In this document: one piece after another, positions 26,110 through 40,342 of the stretch
Layout of the letters: every line of letters starts with the position of its first letter
Position numbering within the stretch: position 1 is the stretch's first letter
Assembly: GCA_947494565.1 (NCBI GenBank)
Contig: CANLVG010000006.1
Location: 186,001 to 250,000, forward strand
DNA: 64,000 bases
Direction of reading: 5' to 3'
Origin: an uncultured Flavobacteriaceae bacterium
GTDB lineage: Bacteria > Bacteroidota > Bacteroidia > Flavobacteriales > Flavobacteriaceae
Notes under the pieces: model-generated
Seen by the model: the letters and a program-made list of their open reading frames with translations, nothing else
Told to the model about the DNA's origin: nothing
Databases searched by the model: none
Translations under genes and position numbers: made by a program

Positions 26110-26123
26110 ATGATTTTGGTCAG
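26110..26123 (-). promoter_or_regulatory. FNR/CRP-type operator A, hsp20 promoter
   Basis: ATGATTTTGGTCAG fits ATGAY-N4-RTCAK. On the minus strand a -7-like box (TACTTTAG) begins at 26087, 29.5 bp from the palindrome centre, so the operator sits near -41.5 of hsp20. Confidence 0.65.
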
Positions 26124-26133
26124 TTACGAGCGA

Positions 26134-26571
26134 CTAAGGGTTCGATTTGGGTTTATTTTTTTTCAAAATTCCCCCGGCATAATTGAATATTTCCGATTTC
26201 AGCATCTGAAAACTTTTCAAGCACTTGGTAACTTCGACTTTCATCGTGTCATGTCGCTGATAATAAGGTTCATCGCACTTAGAATTGGTACACCTTAACA
26301 TTCCTACAAGATTTTTCTCATGGTTGCTGACAAGAGTTCCCAATTTCTCTTTTTGTTGCTTGACTTTTTTGAGACGGAATAGATAATCTTGGATGCGTTC
26401 GAATAAGTTCGGGGTCGTAGGCTGAAAAATATAAGCGTTCAGAAGATGGTCAATGAATAGTATTTCGTCTTGCATGAAGTAAAGGTTCGATTGCCATTGC
26501 CTCAACTCTTGATGCAAGCGCTCTACTTTTTGAGACTGATCGGCCTTTGTGAATTGATTTTGAGAGGTCAT
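26134..26571 (-). CDS. Coiled-coil hypothetical protein, paralogue of the 25094-25525 product
   Basis: A 145-aa, strongly helical protein with a coiled coil at about 15-130 and a basic tail (GGILKKNKPKSNP). Two Cys residues (CTNSKCDE) sit mid-protein. Its N-terminal third matches the pattern of the 25094-25525 product (LYFMQDEILFIDHLLNAYIF), including the idea of W-Q-S-N-L-x-F-M-x-D-E. The gene ends 11 bp before operator A and starts 6 bp after the preceding gene, so it is the last gene of the unit beginning at 27841. Function unknown. Confidence 0.7.
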   Translation of the reverse strand: MTSQNQFTKADQSQKVERLHQELRQWQSNLYFMQDEILFIDHLLNAYIFQPTTPNLFERIQDYLFRLKKVKQQKEKLGTLVSNHEKNLVGMLRCTNSKCDEPYYQRHDTMKVEVTKCLKSFQMLKSEIFNYAGGILKKNKPKSNP

Positions 26572-26577
26572 ACGCTG

Positions 26578-26979
26578 CTATTTATAAAAATCCCGTATCA
26601 GGGCCACCACCTGATTATCGGTCATGCTATCCACTTTAATAACCGATCTTATTTTTGCTGCGAGTAGTCGGTGGTTATCGTTGAGCTCTTTTCTGAACTT
26701 AGTAGCGGTATCAGCGGGACCAAATATGATAATCGCTTCAGCATCTTTGACTAGTTCTGCGAGGGTATTGAAATACCTTTTAATTTGATGCTTTTTACGT
26801 TCCGAGTATTTACTGTCTTGTACAACGTCTTGAGGGCCACCTTTCAATTTAGTGCCCGAACCTCCCGAAGGCCGATAATTTTCGACCTCTGAAAAAAGGG
26901 TTTGTCTGACTTCTCCTTTTTCCGTCAATGTTATGATATGTGCTTTCTGGATATCCATCCAAATTCCTATTTTTTTCAT
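26578..26979 (-). CDS. eRF1/Pelota-like (baeRF-type) small protein
   Basis: A 133-aa protein. It opens MKKIGIWMDIQKAHIITL, has a Gly/Lys-rich loop (about 35-55) and then an alpha/beta segment with IIIFGPADTATKFRKEL and an IKVDSMTDNQVVALIRDFY end. The order of a short beta start followed by a G-P-x-x-x-x-x-x-F-x-K-E-L helix is what I know from bacterial eRF1-domain (baeRF) and host-attachment-like proteins, which are thought to act on ribosomes. This is fold-level recognition only. It lies 13 bp after a universal stress protein gene and is co-transcribed with it. Confidence 0.5.
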   Translation of the reverse strand: MKKIGIWMDIQKAHIITLTEKGEVRQTLFSEVENYRPSGGSGTKLKGGPQDVVQDSKYSERKKHQIKRYFNTLAELVKDAEAIIIFGPADTATKFRKELNDNHRLLAAKIRSVIKVDSMTDNQVVALIRDFYK

Positions 26980-26992
26980 TATGCGGGTAGAA

Positions 26993-27841
26993 TTAGATTA
27001 CATCGTGCAAAGTGAGCACGGGTATTTTTGAATGGTATCCCATTTCTTTTACTAAAGGGTTGGAGAGTATGCTTCCAAATAAGCTATGTTTCTTATTGAC
27101 AAATGCAATCATATCACTTTCCCTACTTTCGACGAATGCACTGATTCCTGATTTTACTTTTAGGTCTCTCAGTGTATGATAGCTATGATCGGTACCTTCA
27201 AGTATCGATTCGAGCAATTCCTTATTGCTCATTTGTTCACGATTTAGTTTTAGTTCTCTTTCAATATGTAAAACCCGTATCGCTGCATGATGAAATGAGG
27301 CTATTTCCAAGAGGTAGTTCAATTCTCTACGCTTAAAATTTGTTTTGTAATCCGTAGGAAAGACAATCTCTTTGGGGGCTTTAAATCGTAGCTCTTGTGG
27401 AATTGCCATTACCGGACACTCGGTTACCTTCTCCATGACATCAACTGCGTTCGTTCCGAAGACCACACTTTCAGAACCTGTTGCTCCTTTTGTACCCATG
27501 ATGACCATGTCAATATCATATTTGGCAATGGTCGATTTGATGGCGAACAAAAGCGAATTGAAAGTTGAAATGGTGTGAAAGCGATGTTTCGGATTGTCTT
27601 GATTCAGCGCCAAAATATCCATGAGTTTTTCGAATCTCTTTTCCGAAGTGTGCCTAGCGTTTTCATGGGCTTGGTCACCAGGTTCAGGTACGAAAAACTT
27701 ATCTATGGAATACCCATTGACCAAGTAGGCATTCAGTAAGTAAAAATCACAGGTTTGGTCTTTATAGAGTTCCAGCGCATAACGAATTGCGTTCAGCGCG
27801 TTTTTTGAAAAATCGGTGGGTAATAAAATTCTTTTGTCCAT
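26993..27841 (-). CDS. Tandem-domain universal stress protein (Usp 1 of 5)
   Basis: A 282-aa protein with two UspA domains (about 1-145 and 150-282). The N-terminal domain has the DFSKNALNAIRYALEL start and a nucleotide-binding loop MGTKGATG followed by a FGTNA segment, matching the ATP-binding Usp signature G-x2-G-x9-G-(S/T). The C-terminal domain lacks it and ends with KIPVLTLHD. It is the first gene of a unit with the baeRF-like and coiled-coil genes. Operator B (27896-27909) and a minus-strand TAATTTTA box from 27873 lie just upstream. Confidence 0.88.
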   Translation of the reverse strand: MDKRILLPTDFSKNALNAIRYALELYKDQTCDFYLLNAYLVNGYSIDKFFVPEPGDQAHENARHTSEKRFEKLMDILALNQDNPKHRFHTISTFNSLLFAIKSTIAKYDIDMVIMGTKGATGSESVVFGTNAVDVMEKVTECPVMAIPQELRFKAPKEIVFPTDYKTNFKRRELNYLLEIASFHHAAIRVLHIERELKLNREQMSNKELLESILEGTDHSYHTLRDLKVKSGISAFVESRESDMIAFVNKKHSLFGSILSNPLVKEMGYHSKIPVLTLHDVI

Positions 27842-27895
27842 ATCTTGATAATTGAGATGATGTCATAAAATTAGAGGCCAAAGACCAACCGTGCT

Positions 27896-27909
27896 ATGAC
27901 CATCGTCAG
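27896..27909 (-). promoter_or_regulatory. FNR/CRP-type operator B, promoter of Usp 1
   Basis: ATGACCATCGTCAG fits ATGAY-N4-RTCAK. Its right end overlaps the stop codon of the preceding usp gene. A -7-like box TAATTTTA starts at 27873 on the minus strand, 29.5 bp from the centre, and therefore belongs to the 26993-27841 gene. Confidence 0.68.
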
Positions 27910-28742
27910 TCTTCATAAGGAATCACTAAAAATGGAATGTCAAGATCAAAGGCTATTCGTTTGATGACCGGTTCTCGGCTTATTTTTTCGAGAAAACTAT
28001 GTTCGTAGTTGACCATGACGAGCAGGTCTATGTTCATCTCTTCTAAAAAGCCTTGAATTGCGGTAGCTTTACTCTTGAATAAGGGCATCCAATTTAAGGT
28101 GTGGTCGAAATCGGAGAAATAATCCAAGAAGAGCCCTCGATTCATATGTTGTGTCTCAGTGAAAGTTTCCTCCTCATTAATATGCATGATTCGTATTTTA
28201 CTATTGAATTGCCTTGCGATAAACCGCAACGGTTCTAAAAGTTCGACATCAAAATTGCTTTTGTAATCCGTAACAAAGGAAATAGCCTTGGGCGGGTTGA
28301 AATCTATCTCTTTGGGAATCGTCAGAATCGGACACTTTTTAATTCCACTAATAGCCCTAAGCACATTGCTCCCCAAAAAAATAGCTTTCATTTCTGAACA
28401 ACCACTGTTGCCCATTACAACAAGATCAATGTTTTTCTCTTGAATTGTTTCTTCTATGGCCACTACTAAATCACCCTGAACCGATAAGGTTTCGAAATCA
28501 TAATTGGAGTCGGGCCGATCCCTTTTGATTCTATGATATGTTTCGCGTAGCCCATCGATCGATTGGTCGGCCAACGCTTGTGATTCCAAGACGGCATCTT
28601 TTAGACCAGACAATACTGTATTCTCATCATACACGTGTAGTAGGTAAAATTTGCCTGGTGAGTCCCCAAGTAGTCGGGTAGCATGAAAAAGGGCATTGTA
28701 GGCATTGGACGAAAAATCAGTGGCAACTAGGATATTTTTCAT
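27906..28742 (-). CDS. Tandem-domain universal stress protein (Usp 2 of 5)
   Basis: A 278-aa protein with two Usp domains. The N-terminal domain opens ILVATDFSSNAYNALFHATRL and has the loop MGNSGCSE followed by FLGSNVLRA, a variant ATP loop in which the first Gly spacing is kept. The C-terminal domain ends DIPFLVIPYED and carries a MVNYEHSFLEK loop instead of a nucleotide motif. It is the third and last gene of an operon starting at 30457, with 6 bp to the preceding usp gene. Confidence 0.87.
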   Translation of the reverse strand: MKNILVATDFSSNAYNALFHATRLLGDSPGKFYLLHVYDENTVLSGLKDAVLESQALADQSIDGLRETYHRIKRDRPDSNYDFETLSVQGDLVVAIEETIQEKNIDLVVMGNSGCSEMKAIFLGSNVLRAISGIKKCPILTIPKEIDFNPPKAISFVTDYKSNFDVELLEPLRFIARQFNSKIRIMHINEEETFTETQHMNRGLFLDYFSDFDHTLNWMPLFKSKATAIQGFLEEMNIDLLVMVNYEHSFLEKISREPVIKRIAFDLDIPFLVIPYED

Positions 28743-28748
28743 TTTCTT

Positions 28749-29594
28749 TTATTTTTTAGGTTCGGGGATGACCATAAACGGAATGGTGATATGAAAACCG
28801 ATTTTCTTGATGACAGGTTCGATAAAAAGACGCTCGAAAAAAGTGTGTTTGTTCTTTATCATCACCAATAGGTTCATCCGTTTTTTCAATTGAAAATTAT
28901 TGATGGCATCAATGATACCTTGGCTGGGCAGATCGTGGAACAAATGAGCGGTTTCCGCTAGTAGGTAATTTAGCTTCTGCTGGTTTTCTACTTGTTCTTC
29001 CGTTAATTCGTTACCCGTTGAAACATGCATCACCTCAATGCTCGAAATATGCTTTTTGGCAATGTCGAGTAGTTCCTGCAACTGCTCTTTTTCATAATCG
29101 ACCTCATAGTCCGTTGGAAACAGAATTTCTTTTGGGGTTTCATATTCGAATCCTGATGGAATAGCAATTACAGGGCAGGTGGCCTTTTTGATGAGGTGTA
29201 CGGTTTGTGTACCCAATAAAATTTCCTTGGCCCCGGTGGCACCCTTTGTGCCCATAACGACCAAGTCTGCATTCTCATTTTCGACAAGTTGTAGCACCTC
29301 GTTCACCAATAAGTTAAATGATGCATGTGGGACGAATAGATGTTTTGGATTATTGAATTGAGTCGTTAAAGTAGCTTGTAGTTCTTCCAATTGCATTAGC
29401 GCATTGGCCTGATATTCATCCCCTAATGGTATTTGTCCTGGATTTCCCAACATATATTCAGGCTGATAAACGACTGGTGTATAGGTATGGACTAGATAAA
29501 AAACGCATTCTTCATCTGTAAATAGTTTCATGGCATATTCGCATGCATTGTAAGCATTTCGCGAAAAATCAGTAGGCAAGAGTATTTTTTTCAT
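28749..29594 (-). CDS. Tandem-domain universal stress protein (Usp 3 of 5)
   Basis: A 281-aa protein with two Usp domains. The N-terminal domain starts ILLPTDFSRNAYNACEYAMKL and has MGTKGATGAKEILLGTQT, the ATP-binding loop with its G-x2-G-x9-G-T spacing. The C-terminal domain (about 150-281) has lost it (MIKNKHTFFERLFIEPV). Gaps to neighbours are 6 and 17 bp, so it is the middle gene of a three-usp operon under operator C. Confidence 0.88.
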   Translation of the reverse strand: MKKILLPTDFSRNAYNACEYAMKLFTDEECVFYLVHTYTPVVYQPEYMLGNPGQIPLGDEYQANALMQLEELQATLTTQFNNPKHLFVPHASFNLLVNEVLQLVENENADLVVMGTKGATGAKEILLGTQTVHLIKKATCPVIAIPSGFEYETPKEILFPTDYEVDYEKEQLQELLDIAKKHISSIEVMHVSTGNELTEEQVENQQKLNYLLAETAHLFHDLPSQGIIDAINNFQLKKRMNLLVMIKNKHTFFERLFIEPVIKKIGFHITIPFMVIPEPKK

Positions 29595-29611
29595 AATAGG
29601 TTCAATTAATT

Positions 29612-30457
29612 TTATCTTGAAATGTTCTGTAACACCAAAAAAGGAATCTCAAGATGTAATCCGATTTTGTCAATAGTGGACTGATATAGCATGTCTTCCA
29701 TATAGGAATGTCTTGAGTTGACGATGACCAATAAGTCGATTTTCTTGTCAACGATATGTTTTGTAATGGCATCGGTTTTTTCAGCGTCTACGGTAGTTTC
29801 AAAAGTCAACTTCGCCTTCATCAAACAACTTTCAAGAAAGAACTTGTTATCTGCCTGGCGCGTTGAAAGTTCTTTGATAGGATTGATGTATAAAAAATGA
29901 ATTGTAGATCGAAAAGAACCGCTCATCTGCCCAAGCAGTTTCAATTCCCTTCGCTTGTAAGGCACCAGGTAATCGGTGGGAAATAAAACTTCTCTTGGCG
30001 CATTGTATTCATATTTTTCAGGAATGGCCAGTACAGGGCAATGCACATATTTAAGTACTTGTAATGTATTGCTTCCGAAGTTTAAGGTCCGATCATTGGT
30101 CTTTCCCCGGGTTCCCATAACCACAATATCAAGGTTTTCCCTTTTTGTCCATTCATTGACTTCATCTACTAGGGCACCAAAGGCTGCCACGGTTTTATAC
30201 TTGTGCTTCGGGTTTGGGGCGTAGCGCTTGACTTCGTGTAACAACTTTTTTAATTGAGCTTCTACGTAGTGGGTGGTCGTTTCTTTGAGCTCTTCCAAAA
30301 AACTGCGATTTGATTTGATATCTTGATCGTAAACTTCATCGGCATACGCGTGTAAAATCAGGAACTCACTTTTTTCATATTTGAATACCTGGCAAGCATA
30401 TTTCAGGGCATTAAAAGCATTATCTGAAAAATCCGTTGGTATCAAAACCCTTCTCAT
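29612..30457 (-). CDS. Tandem-domain universal stress protein (Usp 4 of 5)
   Basis: A 281-aa protein with two Usp domains. The first starts VLIPTDFSDNAFNALKYACQV with the loop MGTRGKTNDRTLNFGSNT; the second ends EIPFLVLQN and contains VNSRHSYMEDML. It is the first gene of the three-usp operon. Operator C (30505-30518) and a perfect minus-strand TAATTTTG box from 30482 lie upstream, and the same operator also faces trxA in the opposite direction. Confidence 0.88.
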   Translation of the reverse strand: MRRVLIPTDFSDNAFNALKYACQVFKYEKSEFLILHAYADEVYDQDIKSNRSFLEELKETTTHYVEAQLKKLLHEVKRYAPNPKHKYKTVAAFGALVDEVNEWTKRENLDIVVMGTRGKTNDRTLNFGSNTLQVLKYVHCPVLAIPEKYEYNAPREVLFPTDYLVPYKRRELKLLGQMSGSFRSTIHFLYINPIKELSTRQADNKFFLESCLMKAKLTFETTVDAEKTDAITKHIVDKKIDLLVIVNSRHSYMEDMLYQSTIDKIGLHLEIPFLVLQNISR

Positions 30458-30504
30458 GATATTTAGTTTTGAACCAAAATTAAGGGCCGTTGCTTCTTTA
30501 AACC

Positions 30505-30518
30505 ATGATATCCGTCAG
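30505..30518. promoter_or_regulatory. FNR/CRP-type operator C, shared by the usp operon and trxA
   Basis: ATGATATCCGTCAG fits ATGAY-N4-RTCAK. On the minus strand TAATTTTG starts at 30482 (29.5 bp from the centre) for the usp operon. On the plus strand TATTTTCG starts at 30540 (28.5 bp) for trxA. Both place the operator near -41.5, so one site could activate both units. Confidence 0.7.
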
Positions 30519-30568
30519 TTACAACGGTTCAGGATTTCTTATTTTCGCAGAACTGCAATTTTAGAGTG

Positions 30569-30868
30569 ATGAAGAGTACTTTTGACAAAATCATAAAAAC
30601 GGATACCCCTGTTCTGGTAGATTTTTTTGCAGATTGGTGCGGACCGTGTAAAATGCTGGCGCCCATTCTAAAAGAAGTAAAGGATGAACTTGGGGCCGCT
30701 GTAAAAATCGTGAAAATCGATGTGGACAAAAACCAATCTTTAGCGCAGAACTATCAGGTTAGGGGAGTGCCCACAATGTTGCTTTTTAAGAATGGTAAGC
30801 TTGCATGGCGACAATCTGGAGTGGTACAAAAGAACGATATCATAAGCGTAATCAAAGCATATTTGTAG
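30569..30868 (+). CDS. trxA: Thioredoxin
   Basis: A 99-aa thioredoxin without a signal peptide. The active site is WCGPC (C24, C27), followed by KMLAPILKEV and the cis-proline loop VRGVPTMLLFKNG. The ATG at 30569 is preferred to the GTG one codon earlier. It reduces protein disulphides in the cytoplasm. It is divergent from the usp operon across operator C and convergent with the ClbS/DfsB-like gene, whose stop is 2 bp away. This looks like a stress-regulated thioredoxin rather than the housekeeping copy, judged by context only. Confidence 0.93.
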   Translation: MKSTFDKIIKTDTPVLVDFFADWCGPCKMLAPILKEVKDELGAAVKIVKIDVDKNQSLAQNYQVRGVPTMLLFKNGKLAWRQSGVVQKNDIISVIKAYL

Positions 30869-30870
30869 CG

Positions 30871-31377: not shown

Positions 31378-31392
31378 TTTTAATTGGATTAT

Positions 31393-31441
31393 TTTACGCT
31401 TTACGCTTTACGCTTTACGCTTTGCGCTTTACGCTTTACGT
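31393..31441. repeat. Seven tandem copies of a heptamer (TTTACGC)
   Basis: Starting at 31393: four exact TTTACGC units, one TTTGCGC, one TTTACGC and one TTTACGT. It sits in the 5' region of the ClbS/DfsB-like gene (minus strand, starting 31377). Slippage would change promoter or leader length by 7 bp per unit. Confidence 0.9.
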
Positions 31442-31588: not shown

Positions 31589-32428
31589 TTATTCATGCAG
31601 TACCAAAAAAGGTATTTCCGTATGATAACTTATTTCTTCCACTGCGGGTCGGAATAAGATCCGCTGGAAAAAATTCAAGTTTTTGGCCACCATGGCAATC
31701 ATGTCAATATCCCTACTTTCAGTGAAACACTGTACTGCAGTTTCTAATTTTGTACCGGTCAGGGAATGAAAACTATGGGCCACGTCCACCAGATAATCAT
31801 CTAAAAAATCCTTCTTTTCATTTTGCGATTCCGTTAGCTCTTCTCCTTTTTTTGAAATGTGTAAAATACGGATAATGGCGTTGTTCAGGGTAGCCACATG
31901 AATCAAGGTATCCAAGACGTTCACGTCGTAACTGATATGATAGTCCGTGGGGAACGCTATTTCTTTCGGATTGGAAAATACCGCGCCCTCAGGAACTGCC
32001 AACAATGGTCGTTTCACTTTAGTGATAACATCACCGGTATTACTGCCTATGGTGACCTTTTTCAATCCAGAAGCTCCTTTGGTTCCCATGATGATAAGGT
32101 CTATTTTCTTTTCTTCGGTTTCTCTTTTAATGGCATCTATGAAGTAGTCATGAATAGCAGATGTAACAAAAGTGTGCTTGGTGTTCAAAGGAAGTTTTTC
32201 AATGCGATTCAATAGTTCCTTCAATTCTTTTTTACTGTCCTCAAGTACATAGTCCTTGAAATTTTCAGCAGCACTACGTATCGCAGTTCCAGCCCCGGAA
32301 TAGGGAGGTATGGGATTGATATTGAGCAGATGGAAGGTGCATTTTGACTTCTTGAACAATTCAAGTCCGTACACAATGGCGTTCCATGCGTTTTTTGAAA
32401 AATCAGTAGGAATAAGAATTTGATTCAT
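31589..32428 (-). CDS. Tandem-domain universal stress protein (Usp 5 of 5)
   Basis: A 279-aa protein with two Usp domains. The N-terminal domain starts ILIPTDFSKNAWNAIVYGLEL and has MGTKGASGLKKVTIGSNT as ATP loop; the C-terminal domain ends EIPFLVLHE. It is separated from the other four by trxA and the ClbS-like gene and has its own promoter with operator D (32486-32499). The receiver-CRP regulator gene ends 84 bp upstream on the same strand. Confidence 0.88.
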   Translation of the reverse strand: MNQILIPTDFSKNAWNAIVYGLELFKKSKCTFHLLNINPIPPYSGAGTAIRSAAENFKDYVLEDSKKELKELLNRIEKLPLNTKHTFVTSAIHDYFIDAIKRETEEKKIDLIIMGTKGASGLKKVTIGSNTGDVITKVKRPLLAVPEGAVFSNPKEIAFPTDYHISYDVNVLDTLIHVATLNNAIIRILHISKKGEELTESQNEKKDFLDDYLVDVAHSFHSLTGTKLETAVQCFTESRDIDMIAMVAKNLNFFQRILFRPAVEEISYHTEIPFLVLHE

Positions 32429-32485
32429 GCCGGTTTGTTTAGTGGTTTACGGCATAAAATTAGAACCATCACCTGACCAATAAAA

Positions 32486-32499
32486 TGACGAAGGTCATA
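32486..32499 (-). promoter_or_regulatory. FNR/CRP-type operator D, promoter of Usp 5
   Basis: ATGACGAAGGTCAT is a perfect palindrome with 5-bp arms and a 4-bp centre. The -7-like box TAATTTTA starts at 32462 on the minus strand, 30.5 bp from the centre. Confidence 0.72.
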
Positions 32500-32511
32500 T
32501 TTGCACACGCT

Positions 32512-33564
32512 TCATGTGATTCGTTTTAAAGCGTTTACATCCATAATTTTAATGTTTCTATGATCGATACGTATGAGTCCCTCTTTCTTAAAGCTAGATA
32601 GCGTACGAATAAGTGTTTCTGTTGCCATACCGACGACACTGGCAAGATCACTTCGTAAAACATGAAGGTTATCGTCGGAATCTTTTTGCAGTTTTTCAGA
32701 GAACTTGAGAAGGGTAAGGGCCGTTTTTCTACGGACCGAACCGTAAGCCATTTCCAAGAGTTGTTCCTTTGCTTCCGACAGATACTCCGATAGGGCCTGC
32801 ATGAGTTCCATGGTCAAGGCATGGTTCTTTTCAAGAAGATTTTTGAGTTGCTCGGCCGAGATACTCATCATTTCGATCTCTTCCATGGCCGTTGCATATT
32901 CTTGATGAGGGGTGTTCTTAGTGAATGAGGTAAACCCGAAAAAGTCATCGGCCTTGTAGATGCCGGTAATCAATTCTTTACCCATTTCATCAAGTTTGTG
33001 GGTCTTCACGATTCCCTTGATAATGAGGTATACCCTGTTGGAATGCATACCTTCTCGATAAATACATTCCCCAGCCCCATAATTCAAGGCTTCACCGTGA
33101 TCATCGATGAAATTTTTGAGCTGATGAAGGCTGTGCAGTATAGGGTTCCGGTCGGAAGGTGCTGCTATGACGGTCTCTTTCGATTCTTTAAGAATGGCTA
33201 TTTTCGCCAATCGACTCTCTATGGCACCAATCAATTCTTGCTCTTCAAATGGTTTGGTGAGATAATCATCAGCACCGAGATTCATTCCCTTGCGAATATC
33301 TTTGCGTTCGGTCTTTGCGGATAGAAAAATAAAAGGAATACTTTTGGTACTTGAATTTTCCGATAACGCTTGCAGTACGCCATAGCCATCTAATTCGGGC
33401 ATCATAATATCGCAAACAATCACATCCGGTAGATAGTTTTGAGCTAGTACGACTCCTTTTTTACCGTCCGATGCGGTCTGTACTTCATAATTGGATAATT
33501 GCAATAGCTCCGCAGTCGTCTCTCGCAGTATGGTATCGTCTTCGATCAGTACTATTTTTTTCAT
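32512..33564 (-). CDS. Response regulator: receiver fused to a CRP/FNR-type DNA-binding module
   Basis: A 350-aa fusion. The receiver covers 1-122 (acidic pair Asp9/Asp10, phospho-acceptor Asp52 in VIVCDIMMPELDG, Lys in LTKPFEE). A cyclic-nucleotide-binding-type barrel covers about 150-270 (YGAGECIYREGM, RVYLIIKGIVK). A Crp-type winged helix covers about 285-345 (LRSDLASVVGMATETLIRTL). The recognition helix keeps Glu and Arg in E-x-x-x-R, the pair that reads the TGA half-site in CRP and FNR. No N-terminal Cys cluster for an iron-sulphur centre is seen, so it is not a classic FNR; phosphorylation probably supplies the signal. The partner kinase gene lies 123 bp upstream. Confidence 0.88.
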   Translation of the reverse strand: MKKIVLIEDDTILRETTAELLQLSNYEVQTASDGKKGVVLAQNYLPDVIVCDIMMPELDGYGVLQALSENSSTKSIPFIFLSAKTERKDIRKGMNLGADDYLTKPFEEQELIGAIESRLAKIAILKESKETVIAAPSDRNPILHSLHQLKNFIDDHGEALNYGAGECIYREGMHSNRVYLIIKGIVKTHKLDEMGKELITGIYKADDFFGFTSFTKNTPHQEYATAMEEIEMMSISAEQLKNLLEKNHALTMELMQALSEYLSEAKEQLLEMAYGSVRRKTALTLLKFSEKLQKDSDDNLHVLRSDLASVVGMATETLIRTLSSFKKEGLIRIDHRNIKIMDVNALKRIT

Positions 33565-33687: not shown

Positions 33688-34923
33688 TCAGCTGCCATTT
33701 GCATCTGCCAGGGGTAGGGTGACCGTGAACGTACTTCCCTTATTTTCATGGCTTACAAATGAAATGCTACCGTTTAAGTTCTCTAAGTGTCCCTTGATGA
33801 TGTGCAAACCAATGCCCGTTCCACTATTCAGTACGGCATTTTCAGCCCGAAAATAGCGTTCGAAAATGTGTCTTTGGTCTTTTTCGGGAATACCTATTCC
33901 TTGGTCGATTACGCTAAAAATAATTTGATTGGCGCCGAGTTCTATTTTAAGGTCAATAAGTGTATCTTCCGGAGAATACTTGATCGCATTGTGTAATAGA
34001 TTCGTTAAAACCAAGTTCACAATTTTCTCATCTTGGCGAATAATGACATCCTCTATATTTTGTGGATAGGTGATGCGCTGTCCGATTTTTAATAGCATGT
34101 TGGAGTTGTAAACAACTTCGTTGATCACCTTGCTTAACGAAAAATCGGTAAACCTGTAGACCTCTTTCCCTTCCCTCAAACGTTCAATGGAAAGAAAATC
34201 GGTAAGAATGGTATTCAATCGCTTTACCTCGCCAATAATGGTCTTAAGGTGCTTATCTCTTTTTTCTTGTTGCTCCTCTTTTTTGTATTTGCCTACCAGG
34301 GTAGCCGAGGTCATAATTCCGCTCAAAGGGGTTTTGAATTCGTGCGAAACCAACGAAAGAAATTTAGTCTTCAATTCATTGAGTTCCCTTTCCTTTTGCA
34401 ATGCGTTCTTTATTTTTTTCTCAGCAGATACCCTTAACTTGATTTCTTTTTTGAGTTCGGCCACGGTGTCTCTTAATTCTACCGTTCGCTTCTTTATTTT
34501 TTTCTCCAAGTTTGCATTGAGCTCATGTATTTCGCGCTCCCTTTCCTTGACATCGGTAATGTCGATGATAAGTGCCATGACGTAGGAGTTTCCATAAAGC
34601 GAAAACGGATTGAGTCCTATTTCCAACGGAAACTGCTCCTTGTTTTTTCGCAACCCGAATAACTCACGTCCATGAGCCATTCTTCGTTTGTTTCTGTTTT
34701 TGTGATATTGTGCGACGTGCTTTTTGTGGAATTCGTGGTGAGAAGGTGGGAGTAAGATGTCTAAAGAACTTCCTTTGAGTTCATCAGTCTCATAACCGAA
34801 CATTTCGTTTGTTCTACTATTGGTCGCTACGATAATCTGATCTTTGTTGACGACTAATATCCCTTCGGATACTGCCTCCGAAAGTAAATTGAATATGTTG
34901 CTATTCTGATCGAAAACCCTCAT
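33688..34923 (-). CDS. PAS-domain sensor histidine kinase, possibly FixL-like
   Basis: A 411-aa soluble kinase. A PAS domain covers about 8-125, a coiled coil about 125-185, HisKA about 186-250 with phospho-acceptor His194 (LVSHEFKTPLSG) and HATPase about 295-405 (NLLHNAIKYSP, DQGIGIPEKDQ, GTGIGLHI). No membrane helix is present. The stretch LPPSHHEFHKKHVAQY lines up with the FixL haem-pocket helix, placing His66 at the proximal haem ligand, and Arg86 (HGREL) falls at the Arg that contacts oxygen. That stretch is also common in haem-free PAS domains, so haem binding is a hypothesis. Operator E lies 160 bp upstream of the start. Confidence 0.87.
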   Translation of the reverse strand: MRVFDQNSNIFNLLSEAVSEGILVVNKDQIIVATNSRTNEMFGYETDELKGSSLDILLPPSHHEFHKKHVAQYHKNRNKRRMAHGRELFGLRKNKEQFPLEIGLNPFSLYGNSYVMALIIDITDVKEREREIHELNANLEKKIKKRTVELRDTVAELKKEIKLRVSAEKKIKNALQKERELNELKTKFLSLVSHEFKTPLSGIMTSATLVGKYKKEEQQEKRDKHLKTIIGEVKRLNTILTDFLSIERLREGKEVYRFTDFSLSKVINEVVYNSNMLLKIGQRITYPQNIEDVIIRQDEKIVNLVLTNLLHNAIKYSPEDTLIDLKIELGANQIIFSVIDQGIGIPEKDQRHIFERYFRAENAVLNSGTGIGLHIIKGHLENLNGSISFVSHENKGSTFTVTLPLADANGS

Positions 34924-35275
34924 TTTTCTTTCGAGTTTCTTTTACGTTTACTTCATCTATTTGAAGCCTACTTTTTTATGGTTTGATTCCTTACCGATAT
35001 CTAAATGACAAAAATTCAGAGCATGCTATGCCATGTATTCCAATAAAAAATGGAAAGATGAAGCAAAACGGGCGTAAAGCACATGACCAAGGTCATAGGT
35101 GCCTATGGTATTACCAAATTGCTTTTAACTACAAACGGGAGAGTTGACTTTACGGGACTATCCTGTTACAAGGCTATTTTTTTGGTGGTTGACCAAGTAT
35201 AAAGATAAGAAAGTAGGATGACAAATAACGCTTTGATTTTGTGCCAATTCGTTGTTGTGGGATTCTTTTTTTGTG
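34924..35275. other. Intergenic region upstream of the PAS kinase
   Basis: 352 bp between two minus-strand genes. Apart from operator E (35083-35096) it shows nothing recognisable: no ORF and no strong hairpin. If operator E marks the promoter, the kinase mRNA has a leader of about 125 nt. Confidence 0.45.
35083..35096 (-). promoter_or_regulatory. FNR/CRP-type operator E, PAS kinase promoter
   Basis: ATGACCAAGGTCAT is a perfect palindrome with a 4-bp centre. A weak -7-like sequence (CATCTTTC, from 35060 on the minus strand) is 29.5 bp away. It would make the kinase-regulator unit self-controlled. Confidence 0.62.
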
Positions 35276-36235
35276 TCATAATTTGCGCCAGGCCAGTGCC
35301 GCAGGTCCCAAAACCGAGTTGTTTCCCGGACTGTCTGAAATCAATACCTTTACCTTTCCCCTGTAGGCCTCGAAAAGGTGTTGTTCCATGCTTCTGACAG
35401 TAGGTGTAACCAAGATTTCCCCTGCTTTACTCAGCCCGCCCAGTAAGATAAAAGCCTCTGGATCCAAGTGTGCGGCAGTGTCCGCCATTTGTACCCCGAG
35501 CGTTTCAGCCGTTTGTTTAAAGGCTTTTAGCGCAATGGGGTCACCCTGAAGCGCGGCATCTGAGATAAGCTCACCAGTCATGTCATCAAAACTAATACGG
35601 CGCAACGAAGAATCGTCGCGCATTTCGGCAATAAGTTCAAAAATAGTGCGTCGTATACCCGTTACCGAAACATAGGTTTCCAAACACCCTTGTAGTCCAC
35701 AGTTACATTGTCTTGCATTTGGGCTCGAATCTACGTTTACATGTCCTAGCTCACCCGCCATTCCATGTTGGCCTATCAATAAATTACCATTTGAAATAAT
35801 TCCGCTGCCAAGTCCTGTTCCTAAAGTGAGTACCACGAAGTTTTTCATTTCCTTTCCCAGTCCGAACTCTAGTTCGCCAACTGCTGATGCATTGGCGTCG
35901 TTGGCAAGCGCTATGGGTACTCGGTATACTTCTTTCAGCGATGCTGCCAAAGGCACTATAGTGCCCCATCGAAAGTTAGGGGGATTTTCCATTGCCCCAG
36001 AATAAGGATTAGCATTTGGCGCACCAACACCAATTCCCATAAGTTCCTGATTTGTTTTTTTCTGAGATTGAAGAGCTTCAATTTCAATTTGGAGCCGCTG
36101 AAAGAAATCGGCGAAGGCTCCCTTGGCACCTGTTTTGAATGTTGTACTATTGAGAATCTGACCGGAAGAATCGACCAAACCAAGCTTGGTATAGGTACCG
36201 CCAATATCAATGCCCAAAACAACGCCCTTTTTCAT
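35276..36235 (-). CDS. ROK-family sugar kinase (glucokinase-like)
   Basis: A 319-aa ROK kinase. It has the phosphate loop GIDIGGTYTKLGLVD near the N-terminus, the catalytic Asp in ALANDANASAVGE, the second phosphate motif TLGTGLGSGII and the zinc-binding C-x-C-G-x2-G-C-x-E signature (CNCGLQGCLE). It phosphorylates glucose or another free hexose; the sugar cannot be deduced. It has no HTH, so it is an enzyme and not a ROK repressor. Divergent from the HMA-like gene across operator F, it appears to be part of the FNR-type regulon, which suggests fermentative glucose use. Confidence 0.9.
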   Translation of the reverse strand: MKKGVVLGIDIGGTYTKLGLVDSSGQILNSTTFKTGAKGAFADFFQRLQIEIEALQSQKKTNQELMGIGVGAPNANPYSGAMENPPNFRWGTIVPLAASLKEVYRVPIALANDANASAVGELEFGLGKEMKNFVVLTLGTGLGSGIISNGNLLIGQHGMAGELGHVNVDSSPNARQCNCGLQGCLETYVSVTGIRRTIFELIAEMRDDSSLRRISFDDMTGELISDAALQGDPIALKAFKQTAETLGVQMADTAAHLDPEAFILLGGLSKAGEILVTPTVRSMEQHLFEAYRGKVKVLISDSPGNNSVLGPAALAWRKL

Positions 36236-36281
36236 AGTTTCAATAAACGAACAAAGTAATTGAAAAATCCGTTTGCCTTAC

Positions 36282-36295
36282 ATGATAAAAATCAT
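36282..36295. promoter_or_regulatory. FNR/CRP-type operator F, shared by the ROK kinase and HMA-like genes
   Basis: ATGATAAAAATCAT is a perfect palindrome. On the plus strand a perfect TAAATTTG box starts at 36318 (29.5 bp from the centre) for the 36347 gene. On the minus strand TTACTTTG starts at 36259 (29.5 bp, TTTG in register) for the ROK gene. Confidence 0.75.
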
Positions 36296-36346
36296 TTCGT
36301 TCGGATGATGCTATGGCTAAATTTGATTTATTGAACACCAGAAGCT

Positions 36347-36613
36347 ATGAAGGCGATCGCTACAATTGATAATCTGAAATCGAAGGACTCAAAAAACTGT
36401 ATTGTCCGGAATTTAAGTCGTATTCTCAACCTACGCATTTTGGATATCGATCTGGAGCATAAGACCGTTCACCTTGTTTACGATAGTATGCTCGCCTTTG
36501 AAATGGCGAAACGCGAGCTTTTGAGCATCGGTTATCCCATTACAAAATGTACCTATCAAGAACCGAACCTTCAGGAAACGACAAGGGATTCCAAATTACC
36601 TTCCGAGTTTTAA
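36347..36613 (+). CDS. HMA-fold protein lacking the metal-binding CxxC
   Basis: An 88-aa protein whose order of elements mirrors a heavy-metal-associated domain: ATIDNLKSKDSKNCIVRNLSRI, VDLEHKT-like DIDLEHKTVHLVYD, then a helix and LLSIGYPITK. In the intact HMA protein at 38475-38735 the loop reads NLKCGGCSNTI; here it is NLKSKDSKNCI, so both metal-binding Cys are replaced. It therefore cannot bind copper in the usual way and may have a structural or regulatory role. A TerB-like gene follows 10 bp later, and operator F with a perfect -7 box lies upstream. Confidence 0.65.
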   Translation: MKAIATIDNLKSKDSKNCIVRNLSRILNLRILDIDLEHKTVHLVYDSMLAFEMAKRELLSIGYPITKCTYQEPNLQETTRDSKLPSEF

Positions 36614-36623
36614 ACCCTGTAAT

Positions 36624-37028
36624 ATGATGTTACCAAGCGAAAAAATAGGCAATGAATTTTATCAAAGTTTAGGTAAGCTGTTTTATGCGGTCGCAATGGC
36701 CGATAAAAATGTTCGCCCAATAGAGATAGAACGGTTAAATGAAGATGTTCAAAAGTATTGGTTATCCGTTGATGCCATTGAAGATGAATTCGGTACGGAT
36801 GCCGGTTACCAAATAGCAATCGTATTTGACTGGCTACAGCAAGAGGAGAAGGAGAGCAATACCTATTATCAGGAGTTTGTCGACTTCTACCATGAACACC
36901 CCAGCAAATTCAATACAACTATTAAGCAACTCATCTTTAAAACGGCTGATGATATCGCCTCGTCATTTGCGAACAAAAACAAGTCTGAATTGATTCTTTT
37001 GGCCAAATTAAGATTGCTCTTACACTAA
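36624..37028 (+). CDS. TerB-like helical protein
   Basis: A 134-aa all-helical protein. The segment KLFYAVAMADKNVRPIEIERL is the acidic, metal-binding opening typical of TerB/TerB-like (COG3793) domains, and FNTTIKQLIFKTADDIASSF a later helix. TerB-like proteins are tied to tellurite and envelope stress; the exact role is open. It is co-transcribed with the HMA-like gene and ends at a bidirectional terminator shared with hpf. Confidence 0.6.
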   Translation: MMLPSEKIGNEFYQSLGKLFYAVAMADKNVRPIEIERLNEDVQKYWLSVDAIEDEFGTDAGYQIAIVFDWLQQEEKESNTYYQEFVDFYHEHPSKFNTTIKQLIFKTADDIASSFANKNKSELILLAKLRLLLH

Positions 37029-37046
37029 ACATCGGTTTGATACTTG

Positions 37047-37082
37047 AAAAGAACCCCGACGGGTCACCCGCGGGGTTCCTTT
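37047..37082. terminator. Bidirectional terminator between the TerB-like gene and hpf
   Basis: GAACCCCG (37051-37058) pairs with CGGGGTTC (37071-37078), enclosing a further CGGGT/ACCCG pairing. A-rich sequence lies to the left and CTTTA to the right. It lies between convergent genes ending at 37028 and 37095. Confidence 0.85.
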
Positions 37083-37094
37083 AGACGTTCTGCT

Positions 37095-37394
37095 TCAATG
37101 CTTTGAGAAGATTTCCTTTCGTTTCTTCAGTTGCTTTTCTACATCTTTTATAGAAGCTATTGCTGCTTTTTCAAAATGTTCTTCATGAGACTTGGCAAAA
37201 ATTCGTGGTCCAGGAGCGCTTAATTCTATTTCACATATTTTTCCTTTCTTACCAGGGTCATTCTCTAGTTTAAAATATACCTGCGCCCGTATGACCCAAT
37301 CATATTTTTGGGCTAATTTCTTCAATTTTTTAAGCACGAAAGCGTCCATACTTTCACTTGTCGGCATTTGTACGTATTGTATATCGATCTTCAT
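37095..37394 (-). CDS. hpf: Short ribosome hibernation-promoting factor (HPF/RaiA family)
   Basis: A 99-aa S30EA-domain protein: MKIDIQYVQMPTSESMDAFV, VYFKLENDPGKKGKICEIEL, then SHEEHFEKAAIASIKDVEKQLKK. The length fits the short HPF/YfiA class without the C-terminal dimerisation domain. It binds the 30S subunit and silences ribosomes in starvation or oxygen limitation. Operator I (37453-37466) with a minus-strand TATATTTA box from 37430 places it in the FNR-type regulon. It is divergent from the WG-repeat gene. Confidence 0.9.
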   Translation of the reverse strand: MKIDIQYVQMPTSESMDAFVLKKLKKLAQKYDWVIRAQVYFKLENDPGKKGKICEIELSAPGPRIFAKSHEEHFEKAAIASIKDVEKQLKKRKEIFSKH

Positions 37395-37452
37395 CGCACG
37401 TTTATGTTTTTAGGTTAAAGTGTAAATATAGAAGCAACTTTTTTCAATGTGC

Positions 37453-37466
37453 ATGACTAATATCAT
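37453..37466. promoter_or_regulatory. FNR/CRP-type operator I, shared by hpf and the WG-repeat gene
   Basis: ATGACTAATATCAT fits ATGAY-N4-RTCAK. On the minus strand TATATTTA starts at 37430 and on the plus strand TACTTTCG starts at 37489, both exactly 29.5 bp from the centre. The site would fall inside the WG-repeat gene if that gene began at 37447, which argues for the start at 37519. Confidence 0.72.
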
Positions 37467-37518
37467 TTTGAAAAAAGAAGGGACAGCTTACTTTCGAAAT
37501 CCAAATAAATTTAACGTC

Positions 37519-38145
37519 ATGGGAAAAATAATAGTACTGATTCTTTTAACAACGTTTCCGTTAATCACCGCTTCGCAAATTAGTCAAGTAGATGAAATTG
37601 CTCCTTTTAGTGAGGGACTTGCCGGGGTTAGAAAAGGAAATCAATGGGGCTTTATAGACCAAGAGGGAACATTGGTTATTGACTTTCGAGATGATTTAGT
37701 CTGGAATGAGAATGCGGATAACGCTACGTCAGGTGTAAAAGCGATTCGCCGACCTAGTTTTAAAAATGGGAGGTGTCTTGTGAAAAAGGAAATCGAGGAA
37801 ATTCCCGTATACGGTTTTATCGATACCAATGGAGAACTTGTGGTTCCACATAAATTCTTGAATGTATCCCCTTTTAATGATGGCTATACTACAGGTATTA
37901 TCTACGAAAAGGTATTACAGGGTAGAAATGAAATCAAAATGGAAGTCTACAAATATAAATTTCACGAAGTGGTTATGGATACCTCAGGAAAAATTCATGA
38001 ATACTTGGTAAAACCAGAGAATATTCAAATGCGGAAGTCTCGATATGAATTGCCTTGGCTTCGGACAAAAATGCTGTCGAAGCGTTTGATTGCAGTTCGT
38101 GGAAATGATAATTTATTGGAGATTCGAAAGTTGGATTTGAGATGA
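37519..38145 (+). CDS. Secreted WG-repeat protein
   Basis: A 208-aa protein. With the ATG at 37519 it has a clean signal peptide (MGKIIVLILLTTFPLITASQ). The mature part contains WG (KWG-type) repeats: FSEGLAGVRKGNQWGFIDQEG and FKNGRCLVKKEIEEIPVYGFIDTNG. WG-repeat proteins are beta-rich envelope proteins of unknown function. The longer reading frame from 37447 would include operator I and lose the signal peptide position. A -7-like box (TACTTTCG from 37489) fits the short start. Confidence 0.78.
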   Translation: MGKIIVLILLTTFPLITASQISQVDEIAPFSEGLAGVRKGNQWGFIDQEGTLVIDFRDDLVWNENADNATSGVKAIRRPSFKNGRCLVKKEIEEIPVYGFIDTNGELVVPHKFLNVSPFNDGYTTGIIYEKVLQGRNEIKMEVYKYKFHEVVMDTSGKIHEYLVKPENIQMRKSRYELPWLRTKMLSKRLIAVRGNDNLLEIRKLDLR

Positions 38146-38474
38146 TAATAAAGGAAAAGGGTTCATGAAAATTGATAATTTCTAGGACAGAAGAAGATGC
38201 TATGACGGCTAACATTCCATAAAGACAGACCTGCGATTCATAGTTTTGTTTCCTCTAGTGCAGTACATAAGTTGATGTTTTTTACCGGTCCCACCGATTT
38301 GAAATCTGGGAAACATCTTTTTAAAGAACATTTTAATTGCTCTTTCCCCGAAGGATAGACTAGCGTTCGGTGCGGTGAAATGATATTTATCATATGCTGA
38401 ATTTACTATGAACAATATCTTTGTGCTTTCGATTTCAATGGATTCAAAAAACGGGTAGATACCTCCGTATCAAT
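38146..38474. other. Intergenic region upstream of the HMA protein
   Basis: 329 bp without a supported gene. It holds operator G (38380-38393) and a perfect TATCTTTG -7 box (38416-38423). The leader from the inferred start to the HMA ATG is about 45 nt. Nothing else was recognised. Confidence 0.5.
38380..38393 (+). promoter_or_regulatory. FNR/CRP-type operator G, HMA gene promoter
   Basis: ATGATATTTATCAT is a perfect palindrome with a 4-bp centre. A perfect TATCTTTG box starts at 38416, 29.5 bp from the centre, so the operator sits near -41.5. Confidence 0.75.
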
Positions 38475-38735
38475 ATGACAATAGAAGTACAAAACCTTAA
38501 ATGTGGCGGCTGCAGCAATACCATCAAAAACAAATTGGAAAGCCTACCGTTTCTTAAAAACCTTGAAGTAGATGTGGAAGCGTCTAGTTTGCGATTTGAA
38601 GAGTTATCACAAGAAAATTTAGCCTTGGTAAAGAAAGAACTTTCGGAAATGGGCTATCCCGAGGTAGAAGACTCGAATAGTCTAGGCCTTAGGGCAAAGT
38701 CATATATCAGTTGTGCCAAAGGCCGGTTCCTTTAG
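38475..38735 (+). CDS. Heavy-metal-associated (HMA) domain protein
   Basis: An 86-aa CopZ-like protein. The metal loop is NLKCGGCSNTI (CxxC), followed by LESLPFLKNLEVDVEASSL and a helix ending EMGYPEVED. It is the copper(I)- or metal-binding partner type of P-type ATPases, but no ATPase gene is nearby. The ATG at 38475 is chosen because family members begin there and because the inferred transcript start lies at about 38428. It lies 11 bp from the convergent DUF6544 gene. Confidence 0.85.
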   Translation: MTIEVQNLKCGGCSNTIKNKLESLPFLKNLEVDVEASSLRFEELSQENLALVKKELSEMGYPEVEDSNSLGLRAKSYISCAKGRFL

Positions 38736-38746
38736 TTTCTCATGGA

Positions 38747-39541
38747 TTATTCTATACTAAAGGCGGTAAGGGTGGCATTGAAATACTCGAAATCACCTTC
38801 TTCTAAATTCCATATAGCACGTAGCCTGCTGGGAATCAAAAGCCCCTTCATTTCTTTATAGTTTTCTACCATTCCTGTAAACTTTTCTAAGGACTCATCT
38901 TTATATCGTTGGGTTTGAAAATGTGTAATTAGACCCTCTTTATTGAAGTGAAAGATTCCTTCTGTACACGTGCCGTTGAATTGTACTAGCGCTCTAGTAC
39001 TTCGTTCATTTATGGTCTCCCAAGCGATATTTTTACTTAAAAACCCCACAGGGTAGCATACGAGCTCGCCTAAACATCTGGCCAGAGCACTTTCGTCGGT
39101 TTTTTGGTTATGGAAAATGGCTAAATTTTTTAGGCCGAAAAGGTTGATTTTCACCTCACCTTTCCCGCTCACACTTTTGTCGCGTATGAACAAGGGGTAT
39201 GCCTGAGCGCTCCAGAGAAAATTTGGGGAACGAGCGGTCATATACTGGATCGCCCTGAAATTCGTCCATCCTTTTCCGACCTTGGTTTTAATACGACCCT
39301 GTTGCCTAAAGGAAACATGTCCATCCATGAATTTACCAATTACGCCTACCTTCTCTAAATAGATGCTTAGGGGTTTGGGCAAGTGTTTTAAATCGGCTTC
39401 GGTGATTCGTTTTTGTCCTTTAGGATATTGATGGAACAATGCGTTTTTTTCTTTTGAAACCACGTCTTGAAATCGATAAAACCCGAAGAATAGTAGAAGC
39501 GCCAGAAAGACAATAAGGGATAAAAAAAGATAGCTATACAT
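38747..39541 (-). CDS. DUF6544-family protein with an N-terminal membrane helix
   Basis: A 264-aa protein. One hydrophobic helix (about 3-22) anchors it to the membrane; the rest matches the plan of DUF6544 proteins (LPKPLSIYLEKVGVIG, VSFRQQGRIKTKVGKGW, EAYPL-type AQAYPLFIRDKSVSGKGEV). The biochemical role of the family is unknown. It lies 11 bp after the exporter gene and belongs to the same transcript, controlled by operator H. Confidence 0.72.
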   Translation of the reverse strand: MYSYLFLSLIVFLALLLFFGFYRFQDVVSKEKNALFHQYPKGQKRITEADLKHLPKPLSIYLEKVGVIGKFMDGHVSFRQQGRIKTKVGKGWTNFRAIQYMTARSPNFLWSAQAYPLFIRDKSVSGKGEVKINLFGLKNLAIFHNQKTDESALARCLGELVCYPVGFLSKNIAWETINERSTRALVQFNGTCTEGIFHFNKEGLITHFQTQRYKDESLEKFTGMVENYKEMKGLLIPSRLRAIWNLEEGDFEYFNATLTAFSIE

Positions 39542-39552
39542 GGTACGTATGG

Positions 39553-40281
39553 TTATATATTGGACATTACGGTCAGTAGCCCGATTCCGAGCAAGAGGAA
39601 CAATACGAAACGTTTGAATTGGGCCTGAGTAATTCTGTCGAGTATTTTCTTGCCCAAATAAGTTCCAATAATACTCACTCCGATCAGGATAGGAATCAAA
39701 TACATATCATGCCAGTGAACATAGCCATTGTAGGTATAAACGATACTGCGGCTCAGATCAATACCCAAATCAATGATGGCCGACGTGGCAATAAACTTTT
39801 CTTTGTTGAGGTTAAAAGCTGACATGGTAGCACCTCTGATGGCCCCACCTGTTCCTAATAGACCAGCAAACAAGCCGGATAGGGAACCTCCAATGATCGC
39901 ATTTTTTTTGGTGTCGTCGACCTTAAGGTTTTTGTATATGAGAAATAATAAAGCAAATACGACCAAAAATACACCCAGAAAGATGGTCAGTATTTTAGGA
40001 TTCGCATATTTGCTCAAGAAACCTCCGAGTGTGACAAATAGAATGGCTGGAACACCCAAATAGAGCATGAGCTTTTTGTCGAACCCCTTTCGAAAGAATC
40101 CAATCTTAGCGATATTGCTTGAAAGGTGAAATAGCGCTGTTATGCCCAAGACCGTCTGAAAATCCATAAAGTAGCTTGCCATGGGCACGAAGAAAACGGA
40201 GGAACCGAAACCACCGACCGTGCCCAATATTTCAGCTACGATAGAGAGGATAATAAAAAGTGGTAAATAACGCGTGAGCAT
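39553..40281 (-). CDS. TauE/SafE-family membrane transporter (sulfite exporter type)
   Basis: A 242-aa protein with about eight membrane helices and the TauE/SafE pattern: VGGFGSSVFFVPMASYFM early, GGSLSGLFAGLLGTGGAI in the middle and IGTYLGKKILDRI late. Family members export sulfite, sulfonates or related anions. I take the start at 40279-40281 (MLTRYLPLFII); a Met 14 codons upstream would put operator H and the -7 box (TAGTTTG, about 40306-40300) at or in the coding sequence. It heads a two-gene unit with DUF6544. Confidence 0.85.
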   Translation of the reverse strand: MLTRYLPLFIILSIVAEILGTVGGFGSSVFFVPMASYFMDFQTVLGITALFHLSSNIAKIGFFRKGFDKKLMLYLGVPAILFVTLGGFLSKYANPKILTIFLGVFLVVFALLFLIYKNLKVDDTKKNAIIGGSLSGLFAGLLGTGGAIRGATMSAFNLNKEKFIATSAIIDLGIDLSRSIVYTYNGYVHWHDMYLIPILIGVSIIGTYLGKKILDRITQAQFKRFVLFLLLGIGLLTVMSNI

Positions 40282-40328
40282 GTCCCTAGCTTTAGAGCTC
40301 AAACTACCTTTTATAGGGGCCATAGGAA

Positions 40329-40342
40329 ATGATGAATATCAT
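40329..40342 (-). promoter_or_regulatory. FNR/CRP-type operator H, TauE/SafE gene promoter
   Basis: ATGATGAATATCAT is an ATGAT-N4-ATCAT palindrome. On the minus strand a TAGTTTG box lies at 40306-40300, with its TTTG in the register expected for a box starting 28.5 bp from the centre. It supports translation from 40281. Confidence 0.68.

Follow-up and report, generated by a model that had tools for sequence, protein, structure and literature searches.

FNR of Escherichia coli acts from operators centred at -41.5, which it reads through a recognition helix of the Glu..Arg type, in CRP proper an Arg-Ser of the cassette holds the phosphate of cyclic AMP (cAMP), FixJ has a LuxR-type output domain, and DosR of mycobacteria has a NarL/LuxR-type output served by haem kinases with GAF domains. 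FixLJ stands above FixK in Burkholderia dolosa, and the DosR regulon counts 10 universal stress proteins (encoded by usp genes) among its 48 genes (PMC6127331); the FixK/FnrN consensus is TTGANCNNGATCAANG, the FixK and FnrN sequences overlapping (PMC4999443). The lxa locus of Burkholderia cenocepacia, a large island in which six usp genes accompany one for a heat-shock protein, has been associated with anoxic survival (PMC6127331, PMC3759415), and in Myxococcus the two-component system NmpRSTU controls the genes for cbb3 and hemN under hypoxia (PMC11841059). Flavobacterium psychrophilum responds to oxygen limitation by raising its cbb3 oxidase and the enzymes of haem synthesis, in a study whose main text does not use the term FNR (PMC9723704), and a meta-regulon paper places Flavobacteriales CRP/FNR proteins near MalR only (PMC8510549). 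A search of one open-access library brought up no paper on a receiver-CRP protein or a FixL system in Bacteroidetes; this domain order may nevertheless have been catalogued before. We describe here a stress-gene island at 26110-40342 of a 64,000-nucleotide stretch (the window, C6:186001-250000) from the 5.39 Mb genome, in 45 contigs, of an uncultured Flavobacteriaceae bacterium, where nine palindromes surround the genes for a receiver-CRP fusion protein (RR-CRP) and a FixL-like PAS histidine kinase. We consider it probable that these palindromes are activator operators centred at -41.5, that RR-CRP carries the FixK/FNR-type domain that reads them, with the FixL-like kinase as its partner, and that they are shared with FNR2, a stand-alone FNR-type protein encoded on the same contig.

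All nine ATGAY-N4-RTCAK palindromes listed in a sequence-only reading of the window were found, one of them shifted by a base (32485, not 32486). Read toward the genes, a TAnnTTTG-like box begins exactly 22 nt beyond the 14-mer at all nine sites, with 0-2 mismatches to the consensus scored at this fixed offset (TANNTTTG). A box at each site had thus been rightly announced; the distance from centre to box start, given as 28.5-30.5 bp, is in fact constant at 29 nt, and of the four exact boxes claimed three are counted (30505 minus, 36282 plus and 38380 plus), the one at 36259 having one mismatch. Because the box lies 22 nt on and the -7 box has been mapped at -12 to -5 in F. psychrophilum (PMC9723704), the palindromes would occupy -48 to -35 with their centre at -41.5, and the constant spacing supports the proposed assignment to FNR/FixK-type operators of class II geometry. 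The operators and their boxes are as follows.

26110..26123, minus strand: operator in the hsp20 promoter; box TACTTTAG at 26080-26087, 1 mismatch
27896..27909, minus strand: operator for uspA, at the 3' end of uspB; box TAATTTTA at 27866-27873, 1 mismatch
30505..30518, minus strand: operator for uspD; box TAATTTTG at 30475-30482, 0 mismatches
32485..32498, minus strand: operator for uspE, directly past the RR-CRP gene; box TAATTTTA at 32455-32462, 1 mismatch
35083..35096, minus strand: operator 5' of the kinase/RR-CRP pair; weak box CATCTTTC at 35053-35060, 2 mismatches
36282..36295, both strands: divergent operator between the ROK kinase gene (minus) and the genes at 36347-36613 and 36624-37028 (plus); boxes at 36252-36259 (minus, 1 mismatch) and 36318-36325 (plus, 0 mismatches)
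37453..37466, both strands: divergent operator between hpf (minus) and the WG-repeat gene (plus); boxes at 37423-37430 (minus) and 37489-37496 (plus), 1 mismatch each
38380..38393, plus strand: operator for the HMA-domain gene (38478-38735); box TATCTTTG at 38416-38423, 0 mismatches
40329..40342, minus strand: operator for TauE; box TAGTTTGA at 40299-40306, 2 mismatches

Three of these sites had been thought to serve divergent pairs. This holds for 36282 and 37453; at 30505 the thioredoxin (trx) side has 5 box mismatches here and exact boxes are found on both sides of the counterpart in the related genome G002. Among the matches listed, the operator at 27896 has counterparts in G002, G031 and G024, that at 30505 in G002, G031, G024 and G011, that at 36282 in G002, G031 and G013, and that at 37453 in G031, G024 and G011, while the G031 counterpart of 35083 has a kinase-side box with one mismatch.

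Chance palindromes can be ruled out. Indeed, the island (25901-40500) holds 18 oriented exact palindromes (nine sites, both directions) against a mean of 0.39 and a maximum of 4 in 200 dinucleotide shuffles scored at offsets 0-40, and nine boxes with at most one mismatch at offset 22, where the best single offset in any of the shuffles gave 1. Elsewhere in the window, four blocks of 14.6 kb that form two overlapping pairs yielded 0, 0, 0 and 2 palindromes, and neither of these two had a box at 22 nt. The enrichment expected from a genome-wide scan of motif and box was borne out, with 25+33 matches for the pattern with a box at 22 nt (at most 2 mismatches) versus 9+8 for the reversed-pattern control, and 6+8 versus 0+1 in the stricter form (at most 1 mismatch). 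In the first of these two scans 15 matches have 0-1 mismatch; seven of them fall in the island, which makes up 0.3% of the genome, two in the cbb3/hemN cluster presented below and six elsewhere. A distant usp gene (Pfam Usp; L079:4982, C1:712982) also carries an operator with a box at 22 nt.

The same register has been retained in relatives. When palindrome and box were each allowed one mismatch, 102 of the 304 oriented palindromes in 11 RR-CRP stretches from 10 relatives, trimmed by us to the gene-cluster part, showed a box at 22 nt, against 0-9 at each of the 60 remaining offsets; six of seven scrambled control palindromes give no box at 22 nt. Moreover, without any preselection, when all 29 RR-CRP copies in 28 stretches were searched up to 260 nt past the regulator gene, a site and box with at most one mismatch in all was present in 13 of the 15 copies that precede a usp gene and in 3 of the 14 others; random 300-nt pieces of those loci reach this level in 31/1020 cases, real sites included. 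Conservation in relatives, which the sequence-only reading had asked of its sites, is observed for the site between RR-CRP and the next usp gene. In a 10-row promoter alignment, majority identity amounts to 0.92 for the half-sites and 0.93 for the box, with 0.45-0.50 for flanks and spacer, the high columns being in part due to choice since only site-bearing rows were taken.

RR-CRP combines a receiver with a cyclic nucleotide monophosphate (cNMP)-binding fold and a Crp-type helix-turn-helix (HTH) (PF00072, 9.9e-28; PF00027, 2.4e-18; PF13545, 4.1e-13). It is a response regulator by its receiver, in which D9, D52 and K104 are invariant in 15/15 sequences, and a member of the CRP/FNR superfamily by its cNMP-binding fold followed by the Crp-type HTH, where E316 and R320 are likewise invariant (15/15). 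The protein matches the GlxR and CRP structures. It is neither FNR proper, having none of the four cysteines conserved in FNR2 orthologues, nor CRP proper, the Arg-Thr-Ser-Ser of GlxR aligning with His-Gln-Glu-Tyr. Control by cAMP is unlikely because the aligned cAMP-contact residues of GlxR differ in RR-CRP. The recognition helices of RR-CRP (TETLIR) and FNR2 (TESCIR) are alike, and the tree of the fused proteins fits one origin with weak support (78/57).

The kinase gene adjoins that of RR-CRP in 14 of 16 copies from its own and related genomes, a count which leaves out the G014 copy and two of the three G013 copies. The two copies devoid of a neighbouring kinase are that of G013 (L092) and the second one of G020 (L152:8826-9869); it is therefore likely that they have a partner elsewhere or work in an orphan mode. 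Among the 12 named loci, which are near full-length matches among at least 80 loci, and considering the matches listed, the kinase adjoins RR-CRP in nine, carriers including Aquimarina, Salinimicrobium, Jiulongibacter, Chitinophaga, Arcticibacter and Sphingobacterium; in the metagenome-assembled genome (MAG) SZAS-76 the two genes are adjacent by coordinates. The PAS domain of the Arcticibacter kinase aligns with FixL without gaps (7.9e-31), that of the window kinase more weakly (1.5e-8), and a histidine aligned with the haem ligand of FixL (His66 in the window) occurs in 11 of the 13 kinases from relatives and in 9 of 9 named ones among the matches listed. The genome with the most operator-plus-box sites of the 59 searched (63 sites) is G013, with its three RR-CRP copies and 18 usp matches.

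A second operator cluster is located 68-86 kb away on the same contig and holds hemN, ccoN, the gene of a CcoI-type ATPase, usp genes and two adjacent genes for stand-alone Crp/Fnr proteins (FNR1 and FNR2), which lie amid operators of the island type and spacing. By Pfam, ccoN encodes a COX1-FixO fusion and hemN a radical-SAM protein, the name hemN being our own reading of this protein at the cbb3 locus. FNR2 has a CxxC motif and two further cysteines conserved among its orthologues. FNR1 (L077:6130-6816), encoded directly before it, has diverged, with loss of the helix Arg (SSEYVIS) and of the CxxC, and its best matches in 58 relatives are FNR2-type proteins at no more than 38% identity. Neither the cbb3/hemN link nor the FixL likeness of the kinase was part of the sequence-only reading. 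hemN and/or ccoN occur near the kinase/RR-CRP pair in 3 of 15 stretches of its own and related genomes (G006, G020 and G031) and, among the matches listed, in Aquimarina, Arcticibacter, Sphingobacterium and MAG 336R; with SZAS-76, where a COX1-FixO gene is near the pair, the link extends to 5 of the 12 named loci, a set that includes two contigs shorter than 4 kb. In G006 and G020, the FNR2 orthologue is absent and the cbb3 locus itself contains the pair; sites precede ccoN, the CcoI-type ATPase gene and, in G006, hemN as well. The candidate ccoN of Salinimicrobium and one of the two in G020 proved to be of the NorB type.

The genes at 25.6-40.3 kb comprise hsp20, five usp, trx, RR-CRP, the PAS kinase, ROK, hpf, a WG-repeat gene, an HMA-domain gene (38478-38735) and TauE. 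Besides this last-but-one gene, they are arranged as follows.

25595..26077, minus strand: Hsp20 protein (Pfam HSP20, 4.5e-21), its true start likely at MSLIKF
26993..30457, minus strand: four tandem usp genes, uspA to uspD (uspA at 26993-27841); A and D match Pfam Usp, B and C match A
30566..30868, plus strand: thioredoxin, trx (Pfam, 4.1e-32)
31589..32428, minus strand: uspE (Pfam Usp, 3.1e-25)
32512..33564, minus strand: RR-CRP, 350 aa, receiver, cNMP-binding fold and Crp-type HTH (Pfam)
33688..34923, minus strand: PAS histidine kinase with a FixL-like PAS and the aligned His66
35276..36235, minus strand: ROK-family kinase (Pfam ROK, 1.2e-61)
36347..36613, plus strand: small open reading frame (ORF), 88 aa, first behind the plus-strand promoter of 36282; no Pfam match
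36624..37028, plus strand: 134-aa protein; no Pfam match
37095..37394, minus strand: hpf, hibernation factor (Ribosomal_S30AE)
37447..38145, plus strand: WG-repeat protein (Pfam), its true start probably the ATG of MGKIIVLILL
39553..40323, minus strand: TauE/SafE-family exporter (Pfam), its true start probably the inner ATG (MLTRYLP)

The start of TauE was moved to the inner ATG because of the box at 40299-40306; the TauE ORF of G011 begins at a Met matching this ATG, with the site upstream. Of the two HMA-fold proteins announced, that at 38478-38735 is confirmed and that at 36347-36613 has no Pfam match. The set of usp, hsp20, hpf and trx genes is coherent and, as had been noted, DosR-like in content with a regulator of another class (HTH_Crp_2 output). 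The label of dormancy has gene content as its only basis, and low-oxygen respiration combined with survival fits better.

From the operators with their constant spacing and conservation, the gene linkage, the co-occurrence, the domain fusion and the FixL similarity of the kinase PAS, all of them features of the sequences compared, we infer DNA binding by RR-CRP, its phosphorylation, a haem, an oxygen signal and activation over repression. Low oxygen would lead the FixL-like kinase to phosphorylate RR-CRP at D52, and the phosphorylated protein would bind ATGAY-N4-RTCAT-like sites and contact the sigma-A RNA polymerase in class II fashion, a mode of activation predicted from the -41.5 geometry. 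The usp, hsp20, trx, hpf, ROK, HMA, WG-repeat and TauE genes would thereby be switched on together with the kinase/regulator pair, whose own operator suggests self-amplification. FNR2, from the cbb3/hemN locus, may read the same operator, and the two circuits would overlap for this reason.

The sequence-only reading had assigned all sites to one regulator. Such a strictly one-regulator regulon was rejected, the same operators standing at cbb3/hemN beside FNR1 and FNR2 and genomes with FNR2 only being rich in sites (180 versus 24). The co-occurrence was tabulated over the 36 own-family genomes of the 59 searched (the other 23 being left out), RR-CRP being counted when near full-length with at least 40% identity and FNR2 at 44% or more, a threshold by which G006 (33%) and G033 (39%, partial) count as FNR2-less. 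Sites and reversed controls number 248:10 in the 10 genomes with both regulators, 180:24 in the 16 with FNR2 only, 41:2 in the 3 with RR-CRP only and 8:4, close to background, in the 7 with neither, and sites hence go with either regulator. Several points weigh here against the explanation that we favour: FNR2 can account for sites, the group with RR-CRP only is small, two of its three genomes, G020 (C24:155799) and G006 (C4:236187), encode another CRP-family protein with a Glu..Arg helix, and these cross-genome counts, of sites as of usp genes, ignore shared ancestry. FNR2 might even drive the island alone, RR-CRP having other targets and its linkage being incidental, which would agree with the position of FNR2 amid the same operators in its own genome, with its RR-CRP-like helix, with the four cysteines conserved in its orthologues and with the site counts of the FNR2-only genomes. 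We regard this as unlikely, however, as the island genes follow RR-CRP: usp matches number 1-18 (median 6) with it and 0-3 without it, and the 16 FNR2-only genomes, with their 0-3 usp matches, have no 134-aa protein, which is found in 7 of the 13 RR-CRP genomes and in none of the 46 others (all 59 genomes, own included). Furthermore, genomes with RR-CRP only keep the sites, and in G006 and G020 it is the pair that sits inside the cbb3 locus.

The nature of the signal is likewise debatable. RR-CRP may bind these sites and its kinase sense redox, nitric oxide or energy instead of oxygen, the island then being a general survival regulon. The distant FixL likeness of the window PAS, for which 10jx and DosP are slightly stronger matches than FixL, and the absence of the haem histidine in 2 of 13 kinases of relatives (G003 and G035, 2 of 22 kinases overall) leave room for it, as do the ScdA-type hemerythrin protein and NorB-type nitric oxide reductase that follow the pair in G020 and the NorB-type gene that follows it in Salinimicrobium. 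The clear FixL PAS of the Arcticibacter kinase, from the same pair, and the hemN/cco linkage in several lineages nevertheless make a non-oxygen signal rather doubtful, if a little less so than control by FNR2 alone. Activation itself is deduced, a palindrome giving by itself no sign, and the palindromes could be repressor sites or chance repeats; this is very improbable in view of the fixed 22-nt box spacing in unrelated promoters and species, seen in 0 of 200 shuffles, and the repressor reading is weakened since a repressor site has no need of a constant register. Other observations are nonetheless unfavourable to the activator operators that we propose: the box of the operator in front of the kinase gene has 2 mismatches, two usp-linked copies are without a good site (MAG bin.18, 4 mismatches; G035, 2 mismatches), and the control word GTAAY-N4-RTTAC also peaks at offset 22 (5/12), being perhaps the site of another regulator, possibly of the CRP family, in class II position. 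Outside the Flavobacteriaceae, six loci around RR-CRP give, when pooled, a box at offset 22 in 4 of 82 palindromes, no distinct maximum, and most often at offset 44, in seven. Offset 44 (L168-L173 pooled) is 22 nt further on, and tandem sites or a repeat are possible. Past RR-CRP and before hemN-side genes, a site occurs in Arcticibacter (1 mismatch) and another in Sphingobacterium (2 mismatches), each followed at 22 nt by an exact box, where random pieces of the two loci reach at most two mismatches in 9/1000 cases; conservation of the operator beyond the family is hence suggestive, no more.

There is a good case for regarding the pair as the rhizobial FixL-FixJ-FixK cascade shortened to two proteins, with the receiver joined to the FixK-type part. 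The evidence is about evenly balanced for the wider proposal that Bacteroidota possess a two-protein FixL-[FixJ~FixK] system, made of a FixL-type haem kinase and of a receiver-FixK fusion that it would phosphorylate and that would bind FNR-type operators directly. Over these operators the system would be interchangeable with an iron-sulphur FNR, whose place at the cbb3 locus it would take in some genomes, and it would have recruited a usp/hsp20/hpf survival island. If true, this would explain the control of microoxic respiration and survival across part of a large phylum, define for the Flavobacteriaceae an operator with its spacing and a list of targets, and show how a three-step cascade known from textbooks has been shortened in nature. 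The genomes compared would also constitute a natural regulator-swap test, with a kinase-controlled and a cysteine-bearing regulator acting on one operator.

Compared with known systems, the island shares with FixL-FixJ-FixK of rhizobia and Burkholderia a kinase with a FixL-like PAS beside the regulator, a FixK-type domain, TGA-N8-TCA operators and cbb3 and stress genes among the predicted targets. It differs in that receiver and FixK-type domain form one polypeptide, in place of separate FixJ and FixK and with no FixJ-type LuxR output, and in operators that serve the Bacteroidota -7 box and whose outer base is mostly A or C, not T. With E. coli FNR it has in common the operator layout, the -41.5 position and the Glu..Arg recognition helix; RR-CRP, however, has a receiver and is devoid of the FNR2 cysteines, and of the two proteins it is FNR2 that comes closer to FNR. 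CRP/cAMP activators have the same fold but other residues at the cAMP contacts known from GlxR. DosRST resembles it in two-component control, usp and hsp20-type genes and hypoxia, whereas the output is here of the Crp type (HTH_Crp_2), not NarL/LuxR, and the kinase is a PAS kinase. The lxa locus is a similar usp/heat-shock island by gene content, found in another phylum and with a stand-alone FixK-type protein as candidate regulator. Finally, NmpRSTU relies on an NtrC-like regulator and a protoglobin sensor, unlike the receiver-CRP fusion and the FixL-like kinase of the island.

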